Origin: a virus | Strand: one strand, 5' to 3' | Length of the DNA: 64,000 nt | IMG/VR virus record: IMGVR_UViG_3300032093_000002 | Span: 62,001-126,000 of that record | Shown here: positions 13,703 through 63,623 of the stretch, one piece after another | How positions within the stretch are numbered: position 1 is the stretch's first letter | How the letters are laid out: every line of letters begins with the position of its first letter | The notes under the pieces: generated by a model | Seen by the model: only the letters and a program-made list of their open reading frames with translations | Told to the model about the DNA's origin: nothing | Database searches by the model: none | Program-made: the position numbers and the translations under genes

Positions 13703-14914
13703 ATGCCCAAAATTAACGTATTAGTTGTCCCATCAGATAGAACAGGTGTTGGCAAATTTAGGTCTGTAGACCCTCACATTTTTCTACAAAATTTATATCC
13801 TGAAGAGTTTCATGTCGATATTATATATGAAGTTCCGTATAACGATGATTCTTTTTGGAAGAAATACCAAATAGTTGCGTTCCATAGAAGTTTAGGTGCT
13901 GATTTCGAAAAAGCCTATGAATTGATTCCGAGATTGAAATCAATGGGAATTAAAACAATATGTGACATCGATGACTATTGGATGCCAGGTAAGGAACACC
14001 CAATCCACGATGTAATAAGATTCAACAAAATAAATGAGAAAATTACAAACAATCTCAAAGTCGCCGAATTTGTTACAACAACTACCTCAATATTTGCAGA
14101 CGAAATAAAAAAATTGAACAAAAACGTTTTCGTTTTTCCAAACGCAATTAACCCAACAGAATCACAATTTAAGGAACCAACACCTGAATCAGACAGATTA
14201 CGAGTAGGTTGGCTTGGAGGTTCTTCTCATCTACACGACCTACAGTTGTTAGACCAATCATTCAGTAAGTTATCTAAACTTTCAGACAAACTACAGTTTG
14301 TAATTTGTGGATTTGACACAAGAGGAACAATAACTGAAATCAACCAACAAACAGGAGAACATAAAAAAAGAAACATATTACCACACGAAACTGTTTGGGC
14401 TAATTACGAAAAAATATTCACACAAGATTTCTCTATTGTATCCGAAGAATATAAAAATTATCTTTTGAAATACTCTCAAGAATCTTACCCTGAAGAAAAC
14501 AAAGAATCATATATCAGAGTCTGGACCAAACCAGTTCAGTCATATGCAAAAAACTATTCAAAGTTCGACATATCTTTAGCACCAATTAAAAATCATATGT
14601 TCAACAGAATGAAATCTCAACTTAAAGTAATTGAGGCTGGTTTTTACAAAAAAGCAATAATTGCTTCTAACTTAGGTCCTTATACAATAGATTTAAAACA
14701 CGCTTTAAAAAATGGAGAATTTACAGACGGTAATGCTCTTTTAGTTGAAGAAAATAGAAATCATTCAGATTGGGCTAAGTTTATAGAAAAATTAGAAAAA
14801 AATAGAAATTGGGTTACCGATTTAGGTGAAAGGTTGTATGAAACCGTGAAGGACAAATATGATTTGAACATAGTCACCAAACATAGAGCAGAGTTTTATA
14901 AATCTATATTATGA
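13703..14914 (+). CDS. GT-B (family 4-like) glycosyltransferase
   Basis: 403 aa. The N-terminal Rossmann-like half begins 'INVLVVPSDRTGVGKFRS' and contains 'TICDIDDYWMP'. The C-terminal half starts at 'LRVGWLGGSSHLHDLQLL' and ends with a donor-site stretch 'SLAPIKNHMFNRMKSQLK' and 'EAGFYKKAIIAS'. This two-lobe order is that of GT4/GT1-type GT-B enzymes using nucleotide sugars. It overlaps the exonuclease gene by 4 nt (ATGA). It is the first gene of a long plus-strand operon; donor and acceptor are unknown. Confidence 0.8.
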   Translation: MPKINVLVVPSDRTGVGKFRSVDPHIFLQNLYPEEFHVDIIYEVPYNDDSFWKKYQIVAFHRSLGADFEKAYELIPRLKSMGIKTICDIDDYWMPGKEHPIHDVIRFNKINEKITNNLKVAEFVTTTTSIFADEIKKLNKNVFVFPNAINPTESQFKEPTPESDRLRVGWLGGSSHLHDLQLLDQSFSKLSKLSDKLQFVICGFDTRGTITEINQQTGEHKKRNILPHETVWANYEKIFTQDFSIVSEEYKNYLLKYSQESYPEENKESYIRVWTKPVQSYAKNYSKFDISLAPIKNHMFNRMKSQLKVIEAGFYKKAIIASNLGPYTIDLKHALKNGEFTDGNALLVEENRNHSDWAKFIEKLEKNRNWVTDLGERLYETVKDKYDLNIVTKHRAEFYKSIL

Positions 14915-16229: not shown

Positions 16230-16400
16230 ATGGGAAAATACTACGAAAATCTGGACACTTTGATTGAATTAATCAAAAAACTAGAGAGGAAACATTTGCT
16301 CGCTGAGTTTATTTTGGATTGCATCCAAATATCCAAAATTGACCCCAACAAAACACCACACGAAATTATAAAAGAAGCAAAGAAAAAAAGATTAGGATAA
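16230..16400 (+). CDS. Small hypothetical protein
   Basis: 56 aa from the ATG at 16230, just past the dUTPase stop; an upstream in-frame start at 16161 would lie inside dUTPase and is less likely. The sequence is one long charged helix pair ('NLDTLIELIKKLERKHLLAE', 'TPHEIIKEAKKKRLG'). Its last base is the first of the next gene's ATG. No family recognised; the tight packing supports a real gene. Confidence 0.5.
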   Translation: MGKYYENLDTLIELIKKLERKHLLAEFILDCIQISKIDPNKTPHEIIKEAKKKRLG

Positions 16401-18028
16401 TGATAACAGTTGGTTATTCAAGCAGAGAACACAAGCCTGAATTTATAGAATATTTAAAAAAGTCATCAGGATACAAAAAAATTAACGTTATTGAAAAAAT
16501 AAATAACGGAGAAAAATCATTGGCTCAAGTTTATAACGAAATTCTGAAAGAATCAGAAACTGATATTATCGTATTTTGTCATGATGACATTTATTTCGAT
16601 ACAAACTCCTGGTATTCCAAAATCACTAAACATTTCGAAAAAACCGACTATGGTATTATCGGTATGGCAGGAACAACATCTATGCCCGCGAGTGGAAAAT
16701 GGTGGGAGGATAGAAGAAAAATGATAGGAATTGTTAATCACGAAAGTGGAGGAAAAAAATGGGAATCAAAATACTCGGAATCAATTGGTAGTTCGGTGAC
16801 TCCTGTGATTGTCTTGGACGGTGTTTTCATTGCTGTCAGTAAAAGTCGAATTAAGAAAAACTTCAATGAAGAATTCGAAGGATTTCATTTCTATGATATC
16901 CCATTTTGTTTTGAAAACTTTATGGAAGGTGTTAAGATTGGAGTAATCACAAATATAAGAATAACTCACAAATCAATCGGTGCCACCAATGACCAATGGG
17001 AAAAAAATAGACAGTTATTCGAAACCAAATACAGCCAAAACCTACCTGTCAAAATACCATATGATACTCAAAGAAAAATTAGAGTTTTATTGAGTTGTTT
17101 ATTTTTTAAAACTTTTACCGGTTCTGAATTATACGTTTATGAATTAGCACAAAAATTACAAAAATTGGGTTGTGATGTTACAATCATGTCTCAAATAGGT
17201 GGAGTGTTAACCGATATGGCAAAAAGACAAGGTATCAAGGTTATAAGTTTCGAACAAGCGCCTGGTTTTAAATTGGGTGACGGGAAATGGGGATTTACAA
17301 CGGAAAAAGGATTTCAACCTTCTACACCAAATATGATGTATAGAGTTACAGAGGCGCCATTCGATATTATTCATATGCAACACAAACCTGTTGCGGAAAG
17401 GATGATTCAATTCTATCCTGAGGTTGAAAAAGTTTATTCGATACATTCTGAAGTCATTGAATTAGAAAATCCAATCAAACATGAATCTATAAAAAAATAC
17501 ATTGCAATCAGACCTGAAATAAAAAATTATATGATTGAAAATTTTCAGATTTCTGAAAATGAGATTGAAGTGATTTATAACCCTATAGATGAAAACAAAT
17601 TTGTTACTAAGAATGTAAAAAAAGAAAACGCGATATTGTTTGTTGGGACTATAGATTATCTTAGAAGAGAAACAATAATGGATTTGATTGACTACACAAA
17701 AGAAAATGAAAAGGAACTTTGGATTGTTGGAGAGGATAAATCGAATTATCTTCCACAAATTCTTTTGAATTCACACGTCAAGCATTTCCCACCAACTTGG
17801 AATGTTGAAAGTTTTATAAATAGATGTTCAGAGACAGCCGGAATACAATTGGGTAGAACAACAATAGAGGGTTGGTTATGCCAGAAACCAGGTTGGATAT
17901 ATAAGGTAGATTCGAATGGATTTATTATTTCTAAAGAACTTTATCAAGTTCCCGATGACGTTGAGAAATACCACAGTAGTAAAGTAAGTGAAAAAATAAA
18001 AAATATATACAGAGAAGTTTTATCATGA
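16400..18028 (+). CDS. Bifunctional glycosyltransferase: GT2-like N-half, GT4-like C-half
   Basis: 542 aa. Residues 1 to about 215 resemble the GT2-type family with 'TDIIVFCHDDIYFD' (DxD-like) near residue 53 and 'HFYDIPFCFE' later. From about residue 225, 'IRVLLSCLFFKTFTGSELYV' begins a GT-B fold with 'DIIHMQHKPVAERMI', 'VYNPIDENKFV'-like (seen as 'IYNPIDENKF') and 'NAILFVGTIDYLRRETI'. The fusion could transfer two sugars in sequence. Its stop overlaps the next gene by 4 nt. The usual C-terminal GT4 Glu motif is weak, so the second activity is less sure. Confidence 0.75.
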   Translation: MITVGYSSREHKPEFIEYLKKSSGYKKINVIEKINNGEKSLAQVYNEILKESETDIIVFCHDDIYFDTNSWYSKITKHFEKTDYGIIGMAGTTSMPASGKWWEDRRKMIGIVNHESGGKKWESKYSESIGSSVTPVIVLDGVFIAVSKSRIKKNFNEEFEGFHFYDIPFCFENFMEGVKIGVITNIRITHKSIGATNDQWEKNRQLFETKYSQNLPVKIPYDTQRKIRVLLSCLFFKTFTGSELYVYELAQKLQKLGCDVTIMSQIGGVLTDMAKRQGIKVISFEQAPGFKLGDGKWGFTTEKGFQPSTPNMMYRVTEAPFDIIHMQHKPVAERMIQFYPEVEKVYSIHSEVIELENPIKHESIKKYIAIRPEIKNYMIENFQISENEIEVIYNPIDENKFVTKNVKKENAILFVGTIDYLRRETIMDLIDYTKENEKELWIVGEDKSNYLPQILLNSHVKHFPPTWNVESFINRCSETAGIQLGRTTIEGWLCQKPGWIYKVDSNGFIISKELYQVPDDVEKYHSSKVSEKIKNIYREVLS

Positions 18029-37622: not shown

Positions 37623-39434
37623 TTATCTCAACTCTTTCAAATCGAATGTTCTAACACCATCAACTGTGATTCTACCGTAGAATCTGTTGTTCACCATTTT
37701 CTTAGCGTATCTAGTCATGATACCTTTGATTGGTGTGAAGTTGAATGGGTTATACATTGTTGGAGTAAGTTGTAAAGGTACATATGGTGCGTAAATGTAA
37801 CCTGTATCAAGAAGCGAAGTTCCTTTGTGACCGATTAACACTTGGTTTGGTGGGAAGTAAGGGTCTCTATAAACTTGGTATCTACCAGCTAGAGTTCCTA
37901 CTCTTTCAATACCCATGTTGTATTGGTCTTGCTCAGGAGCTGCGTTTGAAACGTGGAAATATTCTAAATCATCAAAAATCGCAGAGATTTCAGAAGATAC
38001 AACAATCCAGTTAGCACCGCCTCTTAAAGTTGATTTGTGAATTTGAGCTGACAATTGATTGATTGCAGTAATCAACGTTTGGTTCCAGTCTTTCTGAGTG
38101 TAAGAAACTGCGCCAGTTCCACCACCGAGTCTCTTCCAACCGTTGTAATCCCATCTCAAGTTCCATGCTGCACCTTTTCTAAGGTCTCTCAAGATTTCTC
38201 TATCGATTTCAGCCGCAACCTGCTCAGACAATAAAGCTGTCAATTCAGCTTCAGCGTCAATGTTGTGGAATGCTGCAACGTCTTGTGCCATTTCAGGTGA
38301 CCATTGTGCTCTTAACTTTCTTTCTGTAACAGAAACAGTTACTGACATAAGGTCAAATGAAACCTCACCAATTTTATCTTCAAATTCTAAGTTCTTATAC
38401 AATCTGTAAGTAGCTGAGAACGCTGAGTTTGCAGCTGTTGTTGAAGAGAATGTAGAACCTGTGTAACCGTCCATAGAACCTGTACATGTAATACATACTG
38501 GAACTTGAAGGTCGATTTCAAGATAGATATCACCATTTACATCACAGATGTTGTCATACTGACCACCATCAGTTAATGAACCTGGGAAATCTAAAGTAGC
38601 GTTGTTGTTACCGTATTGAACGATACCTTTACCATATCTTTGAGTTACTACTCTGAAAAGGTAAGGACCACCACCCGCTGTTGTTGGGTTAGCAGATACA
38701 CCGTAGATAGTCAAATCAGACAAGAATGATTCTGTGTCGATTGGGTTACCATCAGGACCGATTAATTTACCTGCTCCGTCAGATGCAAAACCTGACATGA
38801 TAACTAATACTTTTCTATAGTTATCTGTTGCGTATGCCGCTGGTTCAAGATTCAAAGTTGTGTTGTTCCACTGAGCTGTTACAACTGAAGTTATTGCAGA
38901 TGTTACAGAAGTGAAAGAACCCTTAGAATAATCGAATAAACCTGGTGGGTCTAACGCTGGTTCATTACCCTCATAAAATCTATCATAAAGGTCTCTACCA
39001 TTGTTATAGTTGTATCCTGCATTTGGAGATGTTGGACCATCTGGTGCACCGTATGGTGAATAGTGTTGATTAAGACCTGCAGGTGCTGCTGGGTCATAGC
39101 TCTGAATGTTTGGTACAAAGTAGAACAATTTACCGATTGGTAAGTTCATTGCTTGTACTGAAACGATATCGTTAGCCAACAACTTAGAGAACACTCTTCT
39201 CACGATTGGAAATACAACAGTTTCAAATGCACCTGTATCAGATGTAGATGAAGCTTCGTTGATTAAGTGAGAAGCTTGGTTTTCATAAAGTTGAGCTACG
39301 TTTTCTCTCATGTGACCTTTAAGACCCTCTAAGAATCCTAATTTGTCCCATTTGTTGATTGTGTCTTCTTTGATAACTTTAAGGTGCTTAAGACCGATGT
39401 TACCAACAAGACCTGATTCTAATAATGCTCCCAT
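37623..39434 (-). CDS. Major capsid protein (T4 gp23-like)
   Basis: 603 aa. The N-terminal 60 residues end in 'ENQASHLINE' followed by A, an (I/L)xE/A site for the S80 prohead protease; the mature chain would be about 543 residues. The next segment 'FPIVRRVFSKLLANDIVSVQ' corresponds to the gp23 'MVRR...NLIAFDICGVQPM' stretch. 'RLYKNLEFEDKIGEVSFDLM', 'AEAELTALLSEQVAAEIDRE' and the C-terminal 'VNNRFYGRITVDGVRTFDL' agree with the family. Upstream are the scaffold, protease and portal genes in T4 order. A terminator follows. Confidence 0.9.
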   Translation of the reverse strand: MGALLESGLVGNIGLKHLKVIKEDTINKWDKLGFLEGLKGHMRENVAQLYENQASHLINEASSTSDTGAFETVVFPIVRRVFSKLLANDIVSVQAMNLPIGKLFYFVPNIQSYDPAAPAGLNQHYSPYGAPDGPTSPNAGYNYNNGRDLYDRFYEGNEPALDPPGLFDYSKGSFTSVTSAITSVVTAQWNNTTLNLEPAAYATDNYRKVLVIMSGFASDGAGKLIGPDGNPIDTESFLSDLTIYGVSANPTTAGGGPYLFRVVTQRYGKGIVQYGNNNATLDFPGSLTDGGQYDNICDVNGDIYLEIDLQVPVCITCTGSMDGYTGSTFSSTTAANSAFSATYRLYKNLEFEDKIGEVSFDLMSVTVSVTERKLRAQWSPEMAQDVAAFHNIDAEAELTALLSEQVAAEIDREILRDLRKGAAWNLRWDYNGWKRLGGGTGAVSYTQKDWNQTLITAINQLSAQIHKSTLRGGANWIVVSSEISAIFDDLEYFHVSNAAPEQDQYNMGIERVGTLAGRYQVYRDPYFPPNQVLIGHKGTSLLDTGYIYAPYVPLQLTPTMYNPFNFTPIKGIMTRYAKKMVNNRFYGRITVDGVRTFDLKELR

Positions 39435-43902: not shown

Positions 43903-45741
43903 TTATGAGTTCAACAACTTATCCAATTCTTTTTCAATTTCACCCAAAGATTGTTGTGCAATACCAAGATTGAGGGAACTCTTCCCTTTAATCATGTCAT
44001 TTTCCAATAAAATATTAAGTTCTTTCTCTTTCGATTCAGGAGTAATCTCACCCCCCTCAGTAGGTGGTGGTGGAGGAGGAGCAGCCCCTAACTCTTCACC
44101 TCCCCCTGGAGGAAGTGGTGGTGGAGGTGCAAGTTCTTCTTCTCCGCCTGGTGTTGTTGAAGCACCTGCGGAAGGTGTGCTACCTGAAGAGCTACCATAT
44201 AATTTGTCAATATTATCAAATAACCCTGTTTTACTTATAACAGTAGGTGTTGCTTTCAATTCTTCACCAACTGCTCTTTCGATTCTTTGTTGTTGTAAAT
44301 CGAGTCTGATTTCTTCATCAGACCAATTAAATATGTGTTTCTTAGCCCATGTTGCAGAAGTTGCCGCAATACCAAATCCAGTATCTGCAACCAAATCTTT
44401 ATATAGAAGAACTTTTTCTTTCCAAACATCAACTTTCAATAAGTCAGCTTGAGTTGATGGGTTAGTTAGTCCTAAAGTAAAATTATTCAATTCATCTTCG
44501 AATCCTAATAAGAACAGATGAACAATTGCAATCTTATTAAGTTCCGCCAACATACTCTTCTGAATTCTGTTGATAGTTCTAGCAAATCTAATATCTTGTA
44601 AGGCTAAGTTTTTACCATCTCCAACTACTTCCTCGAAACCTAAAAACGCCTTTGGAACACGGAGTGCAGTGAGTAACTTTTTCTGAATATACTCTATATC
44701 GGCAATCTCTGATAGGTTCGTTGCACCTGGTAATGTATCGATTGGACTAGGTGCCGCAGGGTCACGAACAGGAACAAAGTAGTCTTGGTCAACCGCCATT
44801 TGATTGAATCTCATGTCTACATTACCTGTCTTACTATCAACAATTTGTTCTCTTTTGAATTTGTTGGCCACACGTTGAACATATGCTTCAACATCGTCAT
44901 CGTTCATATTCCCTACGAACACCTTGAAAATTCTTCTTTCAGGTGCTCTTGAGGTTCTATAAATCAACATCGCATCTTCACAAAGAAGAAGTTGTTTCCA
45001 AGTTCTTCTCGCTTTCTCCAACATAGATGTTCCATAAGGAAGTTTTCTGTCATCACCTAATAATCTAAAGTGAGCCATTTCCCAAGATTGGAATTCCATA
45101 TTCTTGTTCTTCCATGTAAAATGAAGGGCTTTTTTGTCTTTATCTAATTCTTGTGTAATATCAACTGAGATTTTTGCACTAACTCCAACCTCATGTCTTT
45201 CTATTTCAATTGTTGGTAGTTGTTGACAACCTACAACACCCTTTTCAGGGTCCAGTTTCAAATAAACAAAGTTATCACCATACTTACAAGTGTTTCTTGT
45301 CCACATTGGCAAGTTGGTGTTGATGTCTAAATTACTATTGAATAAATCCGCCAAAACTCCTTTGATTCTTTTTGACTCAGAATATATCTGAAGAATAAAA
45401 CCATCCTCATTTGTAGTTGTCGACTCCTCTGCGTATATATCCAAAGCGGCTGAAATTTCGGGTGTATACTCCATTGACTCATAGTCATACTGAGCAGACA
45501 ATCTTGTTGGTTCGTAGTAGATTGCTTGAGAATATAAATTATTCTCTACCTTAGCCCACTGATTAGCCAAGTAGTAAGTCTGTTGTGCTTGAAGTTTTTC
45601 AACCTCGTATTCCTCTCTACTTTTGGTGCGTAGTAATTCTTTTTTATCAAACTTGAATGTAGGATAATCTTGATTCAGTAAAGAATTAGGTCCAAAAGTT
45701 TTCGACAGTCGTTGCCAAACTGTCATTTTTTGTTCAGCCAT
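43903..45741 (-). CDS. Portal vertex protein (T4 gp20-like)
   Basis: 612 aa. 'QYDYESMEYTPEISAALDIY' near residue 83, 'AEESTTTNEDGFILQIYSES', 'WEMAHFRLLGDDRKLPYGTS' near residue 225 and 'RRIFKVFVGNMNDDDVEAYV' near residue 270 are the gp20-type portal blocks; 'LLTALRVPKAFLGFE' follows. A Pro/Gly-rich linker at residues 510-565 precedes a helical tail. Portals form the dodecameric DNA entry ring at one capsid vertex. It follows the large terminase gene by 37 nt. TATTTATA is 28 nt upstream of the ATG. Confidence 0.9.
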   Translation of the reverse strand: MAEQKMTVWQRLSKTFGPNSLLNQDYPTFKFDKKELLRTKSREEYEVEKLQAQQTYYLANQWAKVENNLYSQAIYYEPTRLSAQYDYESMEYTPEISAALDIYAEESTTTNEDGFILQIYSESKRIKGVLADLFNSNLDINTNLPMWTRNTCKYGDNFVYLKLDPEKGVVGCQQLPTIEIERHEVGVSAKISVDITQELDKDKKALHFTWKNKNMEFQSWEMAHFRLLGDDRKLPYGTSMLEKARRTWKQLLLCEDAMLIYRTSRAPERRIFKVFVGNMNDDDVEAYVQRVANKFKREQIVDSKTGNVDMRFNQMAVDQDYFVPVRDPAAPSPIDTLPGATNLSEIADIEYIQKKLLTALRVPKAFLGFEEVVGDGKNLALQDIRFARTINRIQKSMLAELNKIAIVHLFLLGFEDELNNFTLGLTNPSTQADLLKVDVWKEKVLLYKDLVADTGFGIAATSATWAKKHIFNWSDEEIRLDLQQQRIERAVGEELKATPTVISKTGLFDNIDKLYGSSSGSTPSAGASTTPGGEEELAPPPPLPPGGGEELGAAPPPPPPTEGGEITPESKEKELNILLENDMIKGKSSLNLGIAQQSLGEIEKELDKLLNS

Positions 45742-45778: not shown

Positions 45779-47536
45779 TTATTTGGCACCAAATAACCAC
45801 CCATATTTTTGATAATCCTGTTTAGAAGGACCCTGATTATTTGGGTGTTGCCTTCCCATTTGTGGCACGAAAGGATTGAAAAATTCTGAAGTATTTTTGT
45901 TTTCATTTACAACTGATGTCCATGAATTCAACATTGCCTTAGTATGATTTACGACTTTCTGTAATGATTGAAATGATTTTTCCGCAACATAAATTGCCAT
46001 TGACATCCCCATAATACAGTCGTCGTGATGTCCCTTTTGATGGTCGGGTCTACCATTTACATAAATGAACGTATTCATTTCGTTGTATAATCTATGTGAA
46101 TATATTTTGAATTTGTGTCTAACCGCTTCCTCAAATGATGAAATAATTTGAACTCTCTTGGAATTGAAATTTATTCCTGGAATTTTTTCATTCAGTTTGG
46201 GGTCCCATTTCCATTTGTTGGTTGTATCTACATTATCAACATATAGTCCTGCAGGATAAGACATCTCTTGCATTTTTCTTGCAGTTGAAACCCCCATCCC
46301 TCCTGTTATATCTATAACACAATATGCATTATACATTGAACCCCATTTGAATGCTATTTCTGCAATTACATCAGGTGGGACTTTACCAACATATTCTAAT
46401 ACCTGTTCTCTTTCATCAAAATCGATTATTTGTATACACGAAAAATCCTCAGAATCTCCACGTGATACGTCAACACCCATAACATATTTGTGATTATTTT
46501 CGGGTTCCTTGAATATCCATAACGCACCCCCCATTAGTTTTGCTGATGGTTCCCTTAGAGTGTTATGTGAGATTTCTTGCATCAAATCAGATTCGAAAAC
46601 GTTATCACCTGAACCCAAGAAGTTACATTCCAATTCCTGAGCAACTTTTCTTCTATCGAATTTGAGTTTCTTTACCATACCCTCAAACCAAGCAGAACAA
46701 GGTTTGTATCCTTTAGCAATATAATCTGTTGTTGTTGTATGGTCCCTTTCATAAGGGTTTTCTACAGATAAATCTAAAACTGTATCGGCAGGATAATCCT
46801 CCCTATTCAACAGAAAATGAACTAAGTCATTCGTTTTCACCATATACAGGTCTTTAGTATATCTTGGGTCTCTATACCAAAACATCTCAGAGATTTTGAA
46901 TTCATTCATTCCTCTCAAGGCTTGGTCATAGATATCATAATAAATTGGGTCATAACCGTTTGGAGTTGATATTACAATCACCTTACCACCCGTGGAGAGT
47001 GATGCCATACAAGCGGACCAAAAGTCGTTGTCGGCTTCAATGAACGCCGCTTCATCAAATACAAGTATAGTAGGGGTATAACCTCTCAGGGCATCTCTTG
47101 ATGTTGCAACCGCTTTTACTTCACAATCATTTGTGAGTTTGAAATGTCGTTGAGAATTTTTTTCAGCGGAAAATCCAACACCAACCCATGATGGCCATTG
47201 TTCAGTGAATCCCCTGATTTTGTTTGCCATCTCGACAGATGTATCGAGTTTGTTAGCGATAATGAGAATTTTTTCTGGCTTATTCTTTTTTGCAAATACT
47301 AATTTTTTTGATGCCCAAGCAGCAGTCACTGTTGATACTCCAGCCTGACGATACTTTAAGGCAATATTTTCATTATACTTATCGTAATCTTCTATCAGTG
47401 AGACTTGGTCAGGGAATAAATCTAATGGAACATACTTCTGAACAGTGTTGTCGTATGTTTGTAAATAAGTTCGAAGTGCATAAGGAGTGCTCCTAACACA
47501 CTTCGTAACCTCTATAATTAATTGTTCTTTAGTCAC
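45779..47536 (-). CDS. terL: Large terminase subunit (T4 gp17-like)
   Basis: 585 aa. 'LKYRQAGVSTVTAAWASKKL' near residue 60 is the Walker A variant of terminases, 'TILVFDEAAFIEAD' near residue 157 the Walker B with catalytic Glu, and 'VISTPNGYDPI' the coupling motif. The nuclease domain shows 'YVMGVDVSRGDSEDFS' near residue 352, 'CVIDITGGMGVS' and a late 'HHDDCIMGMSMAIYVAEKS', the acidic RNase-H-like site. It cuts and pumps DNA into the prohead. No split or intron is seen. Confidence 0.94.
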   Translation of the reverse strand: MTKEQLIIEVTKCVRSTPYALRTYLQTYDNTVQKYVPLDLFPDQVSLIEDYDKYNENIALKYRQAGVSTVTAAWASKKLVFAKKNKPEKILIIANKLDTSVEMANKIRGFTEQWPSWVGVGFSAEKNSQRHFKLTNDCEVKAVATSRDALRGYTPTILVFDEAAFIEADNDFWSACMASLSTGGKVIVISTPNGYDPIYYDIYDQALRGMNEFKISEMFWYRDPRYTKDLYMVKTNDLVHFLLNREDYPADTVLDLSVENPYERDHTTTTDYIAKGYKPCSAWFEGMVKKLKFDRRKVAQELECNFLGSGDNVFESDLMQEISHNTLREPSAKLMGGALWIFKEPENNHKYVMGVDVSRGDSEDFSCIQIIDFDEREQVLEYVGKVPPDVIAEIAFKWGSMYNAYCVIDITGGMGVSTARKMQEMSYPAGLYVDNVDTTNKWKWDPKLNEKIPGINFNSKRVQIISSFEEAVRHKFKIYSHRLYNEMNTFIYVNGRPDHQKGHHDDCIMGMSMAIYVAEKSFQSLQKVVNHTKAMLNSWTSVVNENKNTSEFFNPFVPQMGRQHPNNQGPSKQDYQKYGWLFGAK

Positions 47537-52515: not shown

Positions 52516-53259
52516 TCAATCAAGAGACTTAATTTCAATTGAAAGTTCTTTGTCTTTGATTTTCGTTTTTTCATCGAATAATTTTCCAATGTGTCCTGAC
52601 CTTCTCAAAAATTTGAAAACTAAATTTTCATATGAGAATTCACCGTCTTTATTTAAACCTGATTGTCTGTAGTCTTTGAGTTTTTCTTTCAATTTTTTCA
52701 ACTCTTCAGTTTTACCTGTTGATTTAGCGTCTTCAACAGCATCGTCAATTTTTTCAGTCCAACATTTGATTTTATTTTTCAAAACTGACATATTAAGCTT
52801 CAATTCCTTTTTTTCAGGTTTATGAATCCATTCGTCATTCATTATTGAAAATACACCATCACTGTGGTGTTCGTCAGATTCACCCTGCGCATAGACTTCC
52901 ACATCATATCCATAAATTTTGATATTGTGTTTGGAATTGAATATTTTCTTTTTTAAGTCAAATAGTTCTACGTAAAGTTCTTTTTCTTTTCCGTATCTCT
53001 CAAAATCTATAATAACGTGTAAATCAAAGTCTGAAAACTCAGACCAATTGTAGTTTGCCAAAGAACCCATTAGAAACACGTCTTCAACAAAAACATCATC
53101 ACCTAAATCATCCACAAATTCTTCAGCAATCTTCATTAACCCTTTTCTGATTTTAGGTTTCAAAGTTGCCTCCTTTGGGTCATTTGGATTTTCCCAAATT
53201 TTTGGATTCAAAGTATCACGAACCGAAAAACTACTTATAATTTTTTGAAAATTACTCAT
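52516..53259 (-). CDS. Predicted nucleotidyltransferase (Pol beta-like)
   Basis: 247 aa. 'VFLMGSLANYNWSEFSDFDL' near residue 63 is the GS-x-x-x-x(9)-SDxD motif, and 'HVIIDFERYG' follows. A third acid near 'DVEVYAQGESDEHHS' completes the three carboxylates expected. Such enzymes transfer nucleotides to protein, RNA or small molecules, and many phages carry copies of unclear role. The C-terminal part has a helical 'NLVFKFLRRSGHIGKLFDEK' block. TATTTATT lies 4 nt upstream. Confidence 0.72.
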   Translation of the reverse strand: MSNFQKIISSFSVRDTLNPKIWENPNDPKEATLKPKIRKGLMKIAEEFVDDLGDDVFVEDVFLMGSLANYNWSEFSDFDLHVIIDFERYGKEKELYVELFDLKKKIFNSKHNIKIYGYDVEVYAQGESDEHHSDGVFSIMNDEWIHKPEKKELKLNMSVLKNKIKCWTEKIDDAVEDAKSTGKTEELKKLKEKLKDYRQSGLNKDGEFSYENLVFKFLRRSGHIGKLFDEKTKIKDKELSIEIKSLD

Positions 53260-57139: not shown

Positions 57140-57748
57140 ATGAGTAATTTTTCAAGATTATTAGGTCAGTTCAAAGAACAGTTTCCTGATGAATTTAAAT
57201 CAAAAGTTGACATTATCGAAAAATTTGTTGTTGATTATATTAATAAAAACAAAATCACAATCAAGTTTTTGAATTCATGTGGAACCGGTTTCAGTGGGGT
57301 AAGAACCAAAGAACAAGTAATCATTTGTTCGCCAATGAACATGAGAACAATTGGTGATTTTCTTTATACCATATTTCACGAAATACGTCACGAAAAACAA
57401 ATCCGAGATATTAAGATGGATAATCCCTTAACCGATTATGATTTGGAGGATTTTGAAAAACTATATAATCAATACTGGGAAATGGAACTGGATGCAGACC
57501 AGTTTGCAAAAAATATGATTGCCAAATTAGTTATTAAATTAGAAATACCCATTTGGTTTGCCAAAGGGCAGTTCAATTTATCACACTATATCGAACAATA
57601 TCCATCGATGTCAAAAAGTGTTCAGATGTCCCTCAGGTCAATTGTAGACACAATTCGACATATAAAAAAATCGGGTGGTGAATTTAATGATATTCAAGAC
57701 CACCCGATGGTTAAAACACATATTGAAAGATTAGAAAACTTTATCTAA
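57140..57748 (+). CDS. Zincin-type metallopeptidase-like protein
   Basis: 202 aa. 'TIFHEIRHEKQIRDI' near residue 82 is an HExxH zinc site, and 'EMELDADQFAKNM' near residue 116 supplies the E-x-x-A-D third-ligand pattern of small phage and plasmid zincins (including ImmA/IrrE-type). It is soluble. Cleavage target unknown; anti-repressor, toxin-like or maturation roles are all possible. Convergent with the M20/M42-type peptidase gene, overlapping 4 nt. Confidence 0.72.
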   Translation: MSNFSRLLGQFKEQFPDEFKSKVDIIEKFVVDYINKNKITIKFLNSCGTGFSGVRTKEQVIICSPMNMRTIGDFLYTIFHEIRHEKQIRDIKMDNPLTDYDLEDFEKLYNQYWEMELDADQFAKNMIAKLVIKLEIPIWFAKGQFNLSHYIEQYPSMSKSVQMSLRSIVDTIRHIKKSGGEFNDIQDHPMVKTHIERLENFI

Positions 57749-58590
57749 ACCTTATAAGGGTTTTGGTTGTAACTATATTCCTTAGCCTTTTTAAAATGTA
57801 GTTTGTACCCAAGTTCTTCAATCATTTTTCTTCCCATATCGATTCCATTGTAAACATCTTCCACAACAACGTATTCATTTTTTGTGTGGTAATCATAGTA
57901 CCCTATTGAGAAATTAATACAAGAAAAATCAAACTTTCCTCTCAAGGCATAAACATCTGTATATGGATGGACCATATATTCCATATCCGTTGGGACCATA
58001 CCTTCAGTTAGTACTTTGTCACACGCCTTAAAAAAGTCCGTATCTCTATCGAATAGAATTTGACCGAAACATTTTTCAGTAATCATCCAGTTTTCAGGTG
58101 CGTCAAACTGAATTCCATATCCAACATTTTCGAAAAATTCAGGGTCTGCGTTTCTTGAACCGTGACAACCTGTTTCTTCAGAAACGAAAAACGCTGCTTT
58201 CAAATATGGAAGTTCTTTGAGTAATGTAAGACATGCAAACACTCCGCATTTATCATCTCCACCTATACCAGTGGGATTACCTTGGTCGTTATATGCCTTT
58301 AAAGATAATTTGAGTGCTCCTTGAGCATTTGGAAGATTTTCTTCAACAACGTTAATCGTGTCAAGTTTGTGTACAGTGTCTGTGTGAGATATTACACAAG
58401 GGAAATAAAAACCTTCAGGTAAATCCCCAACCGGTTTCTTTGTTGCATACACATTATTTTTTTCATCGAGATAATATTCGATTTGATTTTCTTCCAACCA
58501 TTTGGTTAGATAAAGAACCATTAAATCTTCTTTGTATGTGTGTGTTGGAACACTTAAAACTTCTTTGAGTAACTCTAAACTTTTTGTCAT
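57745..58590 (-). CDS. M20/M42-type di-zinc aminopeptidase
   Basis: 281 aa from the ATG at 58590 (a TTG at 58608 is less likely). 'CVISHTDTVHKLDTI' near residue 65 (His and Asp metal ligands), 'TGIGGDDKCGVFACL' near residue 107 (bridging Asp), 'FFVSEETGCHGSRN' near residue 135 (catalytic and ligand Glu) and 'YYDYHTKNEYVVVED' near residue 232 (His) complete the dinuclear site of the M20/M28/M42 clan; peptidase T-like spacing. It trims peptides; in a phage, possibly it recycles products of Clp-type proteolysis (inference). Confidence 0.85.
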   Translation of the reverse strand: MTKSLELLKEVLSVPTHTYKEDLMVLYLTKWLEENQIEYYLDEKNNVYATKKPVGDLPEGFYFPCVISHTDTVHKLDTINVVEENLPNAQGALKLSLKAYNDQGNPTGIGGDDKCGVFACLTLLKELPYLKAAFFVSEETGCHGSRNADPEFFENVGYGIQFDAPENWMITEKCFGQILFDRDTDFFKACDKVLTEGMVPTDMEYMVHPYTDVYALRGKFDFSCINFSIGYYDYHTKNEYVVVEDVYNGIDMGRKMIEELGYKLHFKKAKEYSYNQNPYKV

Positions 58591-58610
58591 ACTGCAAATA
58601 TATGACAAAA

Positions 58611-59657
58611 TTACAATTCAACCAAATTAAATAATTCTGGTTGATAAAGTAATTTGTTGAAACCGTCTTCAGAAATTTTGAATTTATTTATACCCGACAT
58701 CCCTTTCTTCTTTTTCAAAGATATGTCAATTTTTTTTGTTTCCCTATCAAAACCATCGATTCTAAAAATTAAATCCGACCCTTTTGGTATTTCATACCAT
58801 ATACCGATTTTATGTTTTTTTGTAACCCTATCAATCATATCCATAAAGGTGTTAGAATCACCTGATTCATAATCTTCTTCAATTCTCTCCAAAATTTTTT
58901 CCAACGACCTATTTGCTTCTTTATTAAAACTTTCATTGTCGAATACATCATCATCTTGATATTCAAACCTATCTTCATCCCATCCACCAATTGTTCTATT
59001 GGAATCTTGGAATATAGTTTTCAGTAATTTTTTGATTGACACGTGTGGAACATTATATTGAATGAAATTTGATATTAAATCACCCACAGTTGTTTTGATT
59101 CCATCTCCATGTCTCTGAAAACCAAAATCCCCTAAAAAATTATTCAATTCCGAATTTACATGTTCAGATGCAACGTGTCTTATTTCAATATTTTTTTCGT
59201 GGGTCCAATCAATCACTATTGAGCCAATCTCTCGGGGATAATACTTTTCTAAAAACACTGCAAAACCAGCTCTGTCTTCTTCATCCTCGTAGTCAAATTT
59301 TTTACTATATATAAGTTTGGATATTCTTTGTAAAAGTTCTTTATTATCTGAATCGAAATTGTACCAAGGACCATACCCGTCTAAAAAATCTTGTTCGGAT
59401 GCACTTGAATCTTGAATATCGTAAGTATTGTACGGATTGTTAATTGCCTGTTCGAACCAAATATCATCATCATCCAAACCAATAATTTTTCCAAACTCAT
59501 TCATGTCTGTGAATTCTATAATAACTTTTGACAAAGCAGGATTTTCCCTACTCGCAATAACTCTTCCAATGGACTTATCCGCCCCTTCCAATTCATACTG
59601 ATTAATTTTTCCTTTTACAAATTTTCTTAAAGCAAAAAAACTATCTCCTGGTTCCAT
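58611..59657 (-). CDS. Hypothetical phage protein
   Basis: 348 aa, acidic, no recognised family. The N-terminus 'DSFFALRKFVKGKINQYELE' and 'KVIIEFTDMNEFGKIIGLDD' is followed by Asp/Glu-rich middle regions and 'FRIDGFDRETKKIDISLKKK' near the end. A TATTTATA element is 4 nt upstream of the ATG and the gene runs toward the peptidase, so both may be one late operon. Confidence 0.55.
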   Translation of the reverse strand: MEPGDSFFALRKFVKGKINQYELEGADKSIGRVIASRENPALSKVIIEFTDMNEFGKIIGLDDDDIWFEQAINNPYNTYDIQDSSASEQDFLDGYGPWYNFDSDNKELLQRISKLIYSKKFDYEDEEDRAGFAVFLEKYYPREIGSIVIDWTHEKNIEIRHVASEHVNSELNNFLGDFGFQRHGDGIKTTVGDLISNFIQYNVPHVSIKKLLKTIFQDSNRTIGGWDEDRFEYQDDDVFDNESFNKEANRSLEKILERIEEDYESGDSNTFMDMIDRVTKKHKIGIWYEIPKGSDLIFRIDGFDRETKKIDISLKKKKGMSGINKFKISEDGFNKLLYQPELFNLVEL

Positions 59658-59678: not shown

Positions 59679-59709
59679 TTTGGAAATTTAATATTTATGT
59701 ATATCTTTG
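59679..59709 (+). promoter_or_regulatory. Host-type (Bacteroidetes) promoter of the tmRNA gene
   Basis: TTTG at 59679-59682, 19 bp, then an exact TAnnTTTG element (TATCTTTG) at 59702-59709. The mature tmRNA 5' end at 59730 is about 15 nt past the expected start, leaving a short leader for RNase P. A TATTTATG late-like element at 59692-59699 overlaps it. Confidence 0.7.
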
Positions 59710-59729
59710 TTGTGTTCTTTGAAAATATT

Positions 59730-60124
59730 GGGGAAGTCATGGCAATTGATTGGCGTGTGTAGTTATAGGTGGCACGTAGGAGCTGAGTTAACTCCTTTAT
59801 CAACTGATTTGAAAAAACAAATGGCAATACTTTTGCTAAGATGGCTGCTATCGGTTTAATCGCTGAAGAAGCTACTGTTGTTGCTTAATTTAAGTCACGA
59901 CACTCGGGTCGGTTAGGACATTAACCTAGGAACAGAAGTCCAATATACGGGTCACAGGTCAGAGCTCGTTTAAAATAATTCTGAGACCAAGTTGTTTGTA
60001 GGTGGGTTTCTCACATATATCAAACCTAATATTTCGGAACATTGAGAAACAATGTTGTAATAAACGTGTAGTCACTTATAGTTGTCGCGAACAAGACACG
60101 GGTTCGACTCCCGTCTTCTCCACA
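59730..60124 (+). ncRNA. ssrA: tmRNA (SsrA)
   Basis: About 395 nt. The 5' end GGGGAAG pairs with CTTCTCC at 60115-60121 (one G-U), forming the acceptor stem, and 'ACGGG-TTCGACT-CCCGT' just before it is a complete T-arm. CCA is not encoded. The reading frame starts GGC AAT ACT at 59823 and runs to TAA at 59886-59888, encoding the 21-residue tag GNTFAKMAA plus IGLIAEEATVVA. Known Bacteroidetes tags, as I recall them, start with Gly and end within about 9-10 residues in xAA. tmRNA rescues stalled ribosomes and tags the product for proteolysis. Followed by a strong terminator. It may be a phage copy; position within phage-like genes supports that. Confidence 0.88.
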
Positions 60125-60131
60125 GCAGATT

Positions 60132-60158
60132 AACCCCGAGAAACTCTCGGGGTTTTTT
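60132..60158 (+). terminator. Intrinsic terminator of the tmRNA gene
   Basis: A 10-bp stem AACCCCGAGA/TCTCGGGGTT with AAC loop and T6, eight bases past the tmRNA end. Confidence 0.9.
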
Positions 60159-60347: not shown

Positions 60348-63300
60348 ATGAAAAAAGCAATCTTGATGTCACTTTTAACCTTATTCGTGACAATCACATC
60401 TTTCGGGCAGATTACAACTTCTTCCCTGTCAGGTGTAGTTAAAAATGAAAAAGGTGAGACTTTGGTAGGTGCTACAGTTCATGCGGTACACCAACCAACA
60501 GGTTCAGAATACCGTGCAACCACAAACAAAACGGGTGTCTACTCAATTCCGGCTGTACGTGTAGGAGGACCTTATCTTATTCACGTTAGTTACGTAGGCT
60601 ACAGAAAAGCTGAACTAACTGACATCAACACTCTTCTTGGGGTTACAAGTAATGTTGACGTAACTCTTATTTCTGAATCAAAAGAGTTGAAAGAAGTTAC
60701 TATTGTTGGAACGAGAAACAATTTATTCTCAAAAGACAAAACAGGGGCAGCTCAACAATTCGGACGTAGAGAACTAACTACAATTCCAATTACGGGTGCA
60801 AGAACAATTGACGGAATTACCAAATACAATCCTTTTGGTGATGGTCGTTCTTTTGGAGCACAGGATTCTCGATTGAATAATTTTACAATCGACGGTTCTC
60901 AGTTCAACAACAACTTCGGTTTGGGTTCATCAGCGGCTGCTGGTGGTAGAACAGGTGCTTCAGCAATTTCTTTGGATGCGATTGACCAATTACAGGTGAA
61001 CGTCGCTCCTTTTGACATTCGTCAAAGTGGTTTCGTGGGTGCAGGTATTAACGCTGTTACTCGTTCTGGAACTAACGAAATTGAAGGAAGTGTTTATCAA
61101 ACACAAAGAAACAATTCAAAAACTTATGTGGGAGACAACGCTAGAGGAACTACAGTAACTGCTCAGAAATTTGATGAAAAAGTTTTCGGTTTTAGATTGG
61201 GTGCACCAATCATCAAAAATAAATTATTCATTTTTGGAAACTATGAAAGCATCGTTAGAACTGAACCAGGCACAACTTGGATTTCTACCGGTTCTCCTTT
61301 GACAGGTTCACAAGTAAGTCGTGTTAAATACGATGACATGGTGAGACTTTCGAAGTTCATGAGAGATACTTTAGGTTATGAAACAGGTCCTTTTGAAGGT
61401 TATTCTAACACAAACGATTCAAGAAAATTCATGACTCGTTTGGATTGGAACATTAGTCCAAAACACAAGTTAATGGCACGTTTTGTTAATCACAACTCAT
61501 CCGCTGAGATTAACATTTCTAACTCTCAGTCAGCGGGTGCTGGAAACAGAACTACTCAATTCAACGCAATGAGTTTCCAAAACAGTGGATACATTATTAT
61601 GGATAATACTCGTTCAGGTGTATTAGAATTGAATTCTAAGTTTTCAAACACACTCCACAACAATTTGATTATCTCTTATGACAAACAAATTGAAGACAGA
61701 GCTTACATGAGTCAAATGTTCCCAACAATTGACATCAGAGAAGGTTCAGCAACTTACACTTCTGTAGGTTTTGACCCATTCACACCAGGAAATAAATTGA
61801 ACTATTGGACATTCAACGTTACTAACAACGTTACAAAATATTTGGAAAAACACACTTTGGTGGGTGGTTTCAACTATCAAATGTACCAATCAAACAATTT
61901 ATTCTTCCCAGCTTCGAACGGTGTATATATTTTCAACAGTTTGAATGACTTCTACACTGCAGCTAAACAATCAGTTGCTAATAATGGAGGACCTTCAGCT
62001 TTCGCACCAGCGAGATTTCAGTTTCGTTATTCTGCTTTACCTGGAGCGGTTGAACCAATGCAGGTATTGGAAGCTAATCGTTTAGACCTTTATGTTCAAG
62101 ACGAGTATAACCTTACTAAGAATTTAAAATTAACAACGGGATTGAGAGCGAACGTAATTTCACTTGGAAATACAGCTCTTGAAAATCCTGCAATCACATC
62201 AATGACATTTGGTGGTGGTGAAAAATTAAACACGAGCGTGATGCCGAAAACACAATTGTTATTCGAACCACGTTTCGGTTTCAACTATGATTTAAAAGGT
62301 GAAAAGAAAACTCAAATTAGAGGTGGTACAGGTATTTTCACAGGTAGACCTCCATTTGTTTTCTTATCAAACCAAATCGGAAATAACGGTGTATTAACAG
62401 GATTTATCGATGTATCAGGTGCTCAAGCATCACAATACGGATTTACTACAAATCCTAATCAATATTTTATTCCTCAAACACCAACATTACCTTCAACTTT
62501 TGATTTAGCTTTCACTGACGCAAATTACAAGTTCCCTCAAGTATGGAGAAGTAATTTAGCAATCGACCAAAAACTACCTTGGTTGGGTTTAGTGGCAAGT
62601 GCTGAAGTTCTTTACAATAAGACAATAAACGCAGTTCATTACTACAACGCAAACCAAGATGTTCCTGTAGGAACTTTAGGTGGTCCTGACAAAAGAGCAT
62701 TGTTTGCAAATACTGACCCTGGTGTTAGAGTAAATGATAATGTTTCTATGGCAGCAGTTTTAACAAACAAACAAGGTGCTTACAACAAGTCTCTTACATT
62801 GAAATTAGAAAAACCAATTTCGAAAGGAGTTTGGGGTTATGCAGCTTGGACTACATCAAGAGCTGAAGATTACATGAGTGCTGGTTCAATCGCGAGTGGT
62901 TCATGGCAATCAGCTCGTTCTATCAACGGAAACAACGATTTACAACTTTCTACTTCAGACTTTGTTGTTAGGAATAGAATCGTAGGTTTATTAGGTTATA
63001 GATTTGATTATGGTAAGAAATACGGTGGAGCAACTACAATCACTATTGGTTACGTAGGTGCTCAAAATAACCCATTCTCTTACACTGTAGCGGGTGACCT
63101 TAACGGTGATAGAGTTAGAGACAACGAACTTATGTTTGTACCTGTAAATGGTTCTGACATTCGTTTCTCAACTTTAACAGTAGGTACAAGAACTTATACA
63201 GAAGCTGAACAACAAGCGGCTTTCGAATCATTTATTTCTCAAGATGACTACCTTTCTACAAGAAGAGGTCAGTACGCTGAAAGAAACGCTTCTTTCCTTC

Positions 63301-63623
63301 CTTGGTTACACAGATTTGACCTTTCAGTGGCTCAAGATGTGTTCATAAAAATCAAAGGAAAAAGAAACACTTTCCAAATCAGAGCTGACATCCTTAACTT
63401 CGGAAACATGGTTAATAACAAGTGGGGTGTTTCTCAAAGAGCGGCAGTTCCTCAGTTGTTAAACTTTGTAAGTAGAGACGCGAACAATGTTCCTTCTTAC
63501 AGACTTTCAACTCAAATTCTTGATGGACAAACAGTATTGGCAAAACAAACTTACCAATTCAACTCATCAGTATTTGACGTATGGAGTGCACAGTTAGGTA
63601 TTAGATATACTTTCGGTAAGTAA
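60348..63623 (+). CDS. TonB-dependent outer-membrane receptor (Oar-like) with carboxypeptidase-regulatory-like domain
   Basis: 1091 aa. A signal peptide 'KKAILMSLLTLFVTITSFGQ' is followed by a CarboxypepD-regulatory-like domain ('LSGVVKNEKGETLVGATVHA', about residues 27-115), a plug ('NNFTIDGSQFNNNFGLGSSA', 'LDAIDQLQVNVAPFDIRQSG' near residue 210) and a large barrel ending in 'WSAQLGIRYTFGK' with terminal aromatic. This is the Oar/SusC-like architecture of Bacteroidetes receptors. Residues resemble complete, functional family members. It is framed by two terminators and has the late-type element, so it seems a single-gene transcript. Normally such a receptor belongs to a host genome; here it may be phage-carried. 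Confidence 0.9.
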   Translation: MKKAILMSLLTLFVTITSFGQITTSSLSGVVKNEKGETLVGATVHAVHQPTGSEYRATTNKTGVYSIPAVRVGGPYLIHVSYVGYRKAELTDINTLLGVTSNVDVTLISESKELKEVTIVGTRNNLFSKDKTGAAQQFGRRELTTIPITGARTIDGITKYNPFGDGRSFGAQDSRLNNFTIDGSQFNNNFGLGSSAAAGGRTGASAISLDAIDQLQVNVAPFDIRQSGFVGAGINAVTRSGTNEIEGSVYQTQRNNSKTYVGDNARGTTVTAQKFDEKVFGFRLGAPIIKNKLFIFGNYESIVRTEPGTTWISTGSPLTGSQVSRVKYDDMVRLSKFMRDTLGYETGPFEGYSNTNDSRKFMTRLDWNISPKHKLMARFVNHNSSAEINISNSQSAGAGNRTTQFNAMSFQNSGYIIMDNTRSGVLELNSKFSNTLHNNLIISYDKQIEDRAYMSQMFPTIDIREGSATYTSVGFDPFTPGNKLNYWTFNVTNNVTKYLEKHTLVGGFNYQMYQSNNLFFPASNGVYIFNSLNDFYTAAKQSVANNGGPSAFAPARFQFRYSALPGAVEPMQVLEANRLDLYVQDEYNLTKNLKLTTGLRANVISLGNTALENPAITSMTFGGGEKLNTSVMPKTQLLFEPRFGFNYDLKGEKKTQIRGGTGIFTGRPPFVFLSNQIGNNGVLTGFIDVSGAQASQYGFTTNPNQYFIPQTPTLPSTFDLAFTDANYKFPQVWRSNLAIDQKLPWLGLVASAEVLYNKTINAVHYYNANQDVPVGTLGGPDKRALFANTDPGVRVNDNVSMAAVLTNKQGAYNKSLTLKLEKPISKGVWGYAAWTTSRAEDYMSAGSIASGSWQSARSINGNNDLQLSTSDFVVRNRIVGLLGYRFDYGKKYGGATTITIGYVGAQNNPFSYTVAGDLNGDRVRDNELMFVPVNGSDIRFSTLTVGTRTYTEAEQQAAFESFISQDDYLSTRRGQYAERNASFLPWLHRFDLSVAQDVFIKIKGKRNTFQIRADILNFGNMVNNKWGVSQRAAVPQLLNFVSRDANNVPSYRLSTQILDGQTVLAKQTYQFNSSVFDVWSAQLGIRYTFGK

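Follow-up and report, generated by a model that had tools for sequence, protein, structure and literature searches.

The tmRNA gene and its signals

The window analysed here, a stretch of 64,000 nucleotides, corresponds to bases 62001-126000 of a virus record of 317,210 bases. It carries a tmRNA gene (ssrA), a gene for a ClpC-like unfoldase on the same strand, and T4-type terminase, portal and major head genes (Table 1), so that the phage origin assumed in the original prediction is borne out for the record. Among the matches listed, very many IMG/VR contigs had a terminase at 85-100% identity, and the annotated phages nearest by terminase were below 30% identity. Thus, the record belongs to a large uncultivated jumbo-phage clade. 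These are T4-like jumbo phages, probably with hosts in the Bacteroidota, as suggested by a promoter of the TAnnTTTG type, by Gly as resume codon and by a gene for a TonB-type outer-membrane protein. In addition, a long same-strand run of genes at 11058-31301 includes glycosyltransferases (e.g. 13703-14914 and 16400-18028) and looks like a phage glycan-modification cluster.

Table 1. Positions of the features discussed in the text (window numbering, except for ClpP)
Feature	Position	Strand	Basis or remark
Major head protein	37623-39434		within window
Portal protein	43903-45741		within window
T4-type terminase large subunit	45779-47536		within window
Phage ClpC-like unfoldase, 671 aa	55083..57098	+	N-domain lacking; two AAA modules and a GIGFG resembling the ClpP loop
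M20-type (peptidase T-like) metallopeptidase, between ClpC and tmRNA	57745..58608	-	PHROG 4191 'peptidase'
Fast-evolving conserved protein adjoining tmRNA	58611..59657	-	92/162 loci
-33 element TTTG, Bacteroidota-type promoter	59679..59682	+	sequence; about 19 nt before -7 element
-7 element TATCTTTG (TAnnTTTG)	59702..59709	+	
boxA-like leader motif GTTCTTTGA	59714..59722	+	
tmRNA gene (ssrA)	59730..60123	+	ARAGORN, RF00023, covariation in acceptor stem, connector helix and T-arm
Acceptor stem 5' strand, contains G3 of G3-U70	59730..59736	+	
Pseudoknot 1 region, upstream of resume codon (approximate)	59779..59806	+	RF00023 alignment
Tag frame GNTFAKMAAIGLIAEEATVVA (21 residues, 59823-59885) and stop TAA (59886-59888)	59823..59888	+	RF00023 alignment, relatives' open frames, selection test
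Codons 10-21 (IGLIAEEATVVA), beyond usual tag length	59850..59885	+	
Acceptor stem 3' strand and discriminator A	60115..60122	+	sequence, RF00023, covariation
Predicted intrinsic terminator CCCCGAGAAACTCTCGGGGTTTTTT, strong hairpin	60134..60158	+	sequence
ClpP	G000:C1 143810-144337		same record as window, 22 kb further on

The tmRNA was found by ARAGORN and by the RF00023 covariance model, which matched over its complete length (model 1-374; 76.4 bits, E 6.7e-28, gathering threshold 47). The match spans 59730 to about 60123-60125 and is the sole tmRNA above the RF00023 cut-off in the whole record. The gene had been placed at 59730-60124; its start stands, and its end lies at about 60122/60123. 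The acceptor stem and T-arm had been described as intact, and compensatory changes were seen in both, as well as in the connector helix, with 36 pairs changed on both sides somewhere among 14 close sequences. For instance, acceptor pair 4 swaps between GC and CG, and all five T-arm pairs show compensatory changes. The alanine-identity pair G3-U70 is G-U in all 14 aligned sequences, and the adjoining pairs covary. The window tmRNA ends in CACAG with CCA unencoded (60122-60125), and CCA is encoded in 62 of 101 relatives. In 150 of 162 loci there is a linked gene for a protein with a nucleotidyltransferase fold (52516-53259 in the window).

TAnnTTTG is a known Bacteroidetes motif (PMC6847099, PMC2483708). 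Of 97 related phage tmRNAs, 83 have it ahead of the gene versus 9.3 expected in shuffles, at a median of 30 nt before the 5′ end. The leader motif was likewise found in 83 of 97 relatives versus 1.3 expected in shuffles, and ahead of just 15 of 60 bacterial tmRNAs. Its sequence resembles boxA, and it may have a role in antitermination. Furthermore, a perfect hairpin followed by a T run stands after 48 of 99 related tmRNA genes. The phage tmRNA is complete and in one piece, with promoter-like and terminator sequences of its own.

The tag frame and its conservation

In the RF00023 alignment the consensus resume codon falls on GGC at 59823, and the context before it (TAAAT/GGC or TAAAC/GGC) is the same as in Bacteroidia bacterial tmRNAs, so the Bacteroidetes-like Gly resume codon proposed in the original prediction is upheld. 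Relatives were collected by running a profile of phage tmRNAs on IMG/VR phage contigs, which gave 76 distinct full-length genes at first and 101 in the end. Read from the homologous resume position, the frame is open in 101/101 of them, for 21 codons (87 genes) or 22 codons (14 genes), and ends in TAA, TAG or TGA. Together with selection on its codons (see below), the covariance model and the relatives substantiate the predicted 21-residue tag.

ARAGORN itself starts the tag of the window tmRNA at position 133 of the gene, which yields AEEATVVA, and it does the same for some relatives; the resume codon would then be GCT at 59862 and the tag an ordinary 8-mer. We find this scarcely credible. 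It is contradicted by the RF00023 alignment, by a context identical to that of bacterial resume codons and by the frames open from the GGC-homologous position throughout, and residues 1-13, upstream of the GCT start, are conserved. Moreover, ARAGORN reports the 21-mer in many relatives, missed or misread many tmRNAs of the clade and misread two bacterial tags. AEEATVVA was rejected as the tag on the grounds of covariance model, codon context and selection.

The 101 tmRNAs encode 66 distinct tag peptides with the common pattern GN...K[ML]...GL...V.A. Gly11-Leu12 is present in 66/66 distinct tags with varying codons, and the last residue is Ala in 63/66. The penultimate residue is V, A, G, T, E, K or I; V-x-A and xVA types prevail, and 11/66 tags end in VAA. 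Selection was tested on single changes in 30 disjoint pairs, with an expected synonymous fraction of 0.31. Codons 10-21 showed 33 synonymous versus 13 non-synonymous changes (p = 2.3e-8), and the same test gave no synonymous excess in frames +1 and +2. Thus, judging from these substitutions, codons 10-21 are under purifying selection at the peptide level, that is, they are made and kept as peptide. The Nei-Gojobori pN/pS over the whole tag frame was 0.52, the two other frames giving 0.72 and 0.89; this modest contrast is probably due to many far-diverged pairs, and the disjoint-pair test is cleaner. We also considered whether an RNA helix sets the length of the tag and rejected this, because the predicted hairpins in the tag region track the conserved amino acids and show few compensatory changes.

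The original prediction had taken the tag for a usual one of 9 residues with read-through into an extension. This does not describe the present tag, since residues 8-9 vary ('AA' is often replaced by SA, ET, AT, AL, EA or ST among the 66 distinct tags), whereas Gly11-Leu12 and the terminal Ala are constant. By its sequence the tag behaves as a single unit of 21-22 residues. As for its origin, read-through by a change of codon 10 from TAA to TTA may have occurred, and a stop at codon 10, which would mark an intermediate, was found in none of the related tmRNA sequences.

For comparison, we sampled 60 bacterial tmRNAs read by ARAGORN from the class, and from the family, to which a Flavobacterium belongs (Bacteroidia). 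In 58/60 the tag has 8-10 residues and ends in LAA or MAA. The two remaining ARAGORN tags, of 15 residues, are misreadings of the 9-mers GENDYALAA and GENNYALAA, so that 60/60 Bacteroidia tags have 8-10 residues, and the view that the phage tag is unlike usual tags holds. Among the phage tags an LAA or MAA ending occurs in 0/66, and lengths near 10 do not occur, with 21-22 residues in all 101 tmRNAs. A search for exact GNTFAK[ML]A, a pattern that covers the window-type tag only and not the GNVLNKM type, gave 16 chance matches over 84,980 bacterial and archaeal genomes, none of them in a tmRNA. The same long tag in bacterial homologues, which would have spoken against a phage-specific tag, was therefore not found with this pattern, and a tag common to bacterial relatives was rejected. 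Furthermore, a tree built from 56 phage and 40 bacterial tmRNAs separated the two sets fully, on a long branch with moderate support (0.63). Given the short bacterial tags and this separation, the phage tag is not a recently acquired host tag. That the RNA and its conserved tag are genuine we regard as nearly certain.

The phage tmRNA shares with the chromosomal tmRNA of Bacteroidota (GENNYALAA and kin) the one-piece form, GGC in TAAAT/GGC, the Rfam layout and the promoter type. However, the chromosomal tag has 9 residues and ends in LAA/MAA, while the phage tag has 21-22 residues with a V-x-A type ending, and the phage RNAs stand apart in the tree on a long branch. The commonest tmRNA tag length is 10 (PMC11915505), and tmRNA occurs in about 2% of phage genomes (PMC9004378). 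Large tailed phages with tmRNA, some with SmpB, include Melnitz, whose tmRNA is in two pieces (PMC9004378), the huge phages of Al-Shayeb et al. (2020), for which the presence of tmRNA is reported (PMC7162821), and Bacillus phage G, whose tag we read as AKLNITNNELQVA (13 aa). The tmRNA of the mycobacteriophage Bxz1 group is also phage-borne with a long tag, ATDTDATVTDAEIEAFFAEEAAALV (25 aa; read from Momo and ET08, which belong to the same virus species as Bxz1), but this tag has no evident sequence relation to the present one and the host phylum is another. In addition, a 484-kb phage with a distant terminase (L409 1501-1947, LR756508.1 92434-92880) shows a tmRNA frame of 36 codons from TAACT/GGC (GVNNADYESAGFTAEDFAQMDGESLYHGSERKPAAV); ARAGORN calls another tag there, and this is a single sequence.

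The ClpC-like unfoldase and neighbouring genes

The closest PDB match of the unfoldase is ClpC (E 1.1e-225), the best being ClpC of Staphylococcus aureus. Walker and pore-loop motifs are intact in both AAA modules, and GIGFG aligns with AGFG of S. aureus ClpC and is thus a putative ClpP-docking loop. Like S. aureus and other ClpC, the phage protein has two AAA modules and a ClpP loop; unlike them, it has no N-terminal domain, and its match begins at residue 147 of the 818 residues in S. aureus ClpC. In ClpC this N-terminal domain binds adaptors.

In 104 of the 106 related loci whose sequence continues for at least 4.5 kb past ClpC, the tmRNA lies downstream of ClpC on the same strand, at a median distance of 2.56 kb, and this linkage is seen at ClpC identities as low as about 69%. 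In the two unlinked loci the sequence stops 5.6 kb past ClpC, and in one of them, L195, the intervening peptidase is farther off. The nearby unfoldase of the original prediction is thus confirmed and found to be linked, with ClpP elsewhere in the genome. In the phage ClpP, GMAASMGS, MLHQ and DSSRDFW align with ClpP 1y7o, and the catalytic Ser, His and Asp regions are intact. ClpP was found in 12 records, including that of the window, and was not found in G151 and G152 (290,887 and 304,365 bp), both of which carry the tag. Meanwhile, tmRNA was not found in two phages of ~640 kb that have ClpP and a ClpC of 59% identity. These two (LR745206, LR756502) have GOLLD RNAs a few kb from ClpC (L417 5535-5940 and L418 2007-2413). 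A search of the records G000-G003, the window's own among them, found no SmpB gene, so that the phage would depend on its host for the first step of tagging. SmpB (E 3.3e-48) was found in one relative, G143 (L318, G143:C1 23555-23968), alongside tmRNA, ClpC and ClpP.

The M20-type peptidase lies between ClpC and tmRNA on the opposite strand in 149 of 162 loci. Its HTDTVH, SEETG, FDAP and YH motifs are invariant in 16 relatives, and it weakly matches peptidase T 3gb0. The protein adjoining the tmRNA was considered as a ClpC adaptor and rejected, as its good AlphaFold model (pLDDT 89) had no PDB fold match at E ≤ 0.001. Its residues about 199-257 gave a weak profile match to the anti-CRISPR AcrIIC4 (E 0.0075), for which the fold search gave no support. 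Right after ClpC, a 202-aa protein (57140-57748) with an HExxH motif (FHEIRHEKQ) is metallopeptidase-like and present in 25 of 162 loci. Directly after the tmRNA stands the gene for the TonB-type outer-membrane beta-barrel protein (60348-63623, 1091 aa, PF25183 and CarboxypepD_reg), which is present in just 8 of 162 related loci; an outer-membrane receptor-like gene is unusual in a phage.

Possible fate of the tagged proteins

By analogy with the tmRNA family, host SmpB and EF-Tu would deliver the alanine-charged phage tmRNA to ribosomes stalled on broken mRNAs, and the ribosome would then append Ala-GNTFAKMAAIGLIAEEATVVA, or Ala plus 21-22 residues across the clade. The tag, with its Gly-Leu core and V-x-A type endings in place of the host YALAA/YAMAA, may serve as a degron for the phage ClpC-like unfoldase, whose partner would be phage ClpP where present and host ClpP elsewhere. 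More speculatively, the adjacent M20-type peptidase could trim the products. Tagged proteins would in this way leave the host ClpXP route and stay under phage control. There is a precedent in mycoplasma and Mesoplasma, whose ssrA tags are also extended with an altered C-terminus and go with another protease, Lon (Gur and Sauer 2008; Ge and Karzai 2009, via PMC3985003; PMC9382460). However, those tags are cellular and end in YAFA, the phage tag is viral and unrelated in sequence, and the AFA ending of the Lon type, (NY)AFA, occurs in none of the 66 distinct phage tags. Since the linkage is conserved, the C-terminus is changed and this precedent exists, we infer preferential routing to the phage unfoldase, away from host ClpXP, and we judge the case for it to be evenly balanced. 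A fully private degron, written by the phage's own tmRNA, read by its own N-domain-less ClpC, ClpP and peptidase, and orthogonal to host ClpXP, is a tentative reading that we consider possible but lean against.

Several points weigh against routing to ClpC. The link between tag and ClpC is indirect, as the neighbouring genes may share a theme of proteostasis and not a substrate, and a tag ending in Ala after V or A might still be a ClpX substrate. Moreover, two large relatives carry the tag and yielded no ClpP, and the two ~640 kb phages with ClpC and ClpP showed no tmRNA. The main rival is that the long tag is still read by host proteases (ClpXP, Lon, FtsH), with the extension either lengthening the unstructured tail used for initiation or improving the fit to a host adaptor, and with the ClpC neighbourhood incidental. 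The prevalence of terminal Ala, the VAA endings, which are close to LAA, and the large relatives without detected phage ClpP are in keeping with it, as is the use of LVA-ending E. coli tag variants as degradation tags in E. coli (PMC9382460). On the other hand, all valid bacterial tags in the sample end in LAA/MAA and no phage tag does, Glu, Lys, Gly and Thr are found in the penultimate position, and the linkage to ClpC is near-universal; we take this rival to be rather unlikely.

It is also conceivable that the tag is not chiefly a degron. The rescue of ribosomes itself needs no degron, as tmRNA-DD variants show, and the phage might need only ribosome recycling, the tag being harmless, stabilising or a means of evading host proteolysis. 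The abandonment of the LAA ending and the charged penultimate residues in some tags would suit such a role. Nevertheless, conservation of the whole peptide, Gly11-Leu12 and the C-terminal Ala included, points to specific recognition and makes this account improbable.

Phage tmRNAs, extended tags that go with another protease in mycoplasmas and the 25-residue Bxz1-group tag were already known. What is new is that tags of 21-22 residues form a conserved family across a broad phage clade and that this family stands in fixed linkage to a ClpC-like unfoldase of the phage; our literature search found no description of either, which is not proof of absence. A conserved, clade-wide tag whose length and ending set it off from every likely-host tag sampled and which stands beside a phage unfoldase makes the question of why phages carry tmRNA directly testable. 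If the private route is real, the virus would possess a degron-protease pair of its own, and the tag would offer an orthogonal degradation tag for synthetic biology in Bacteroidota.
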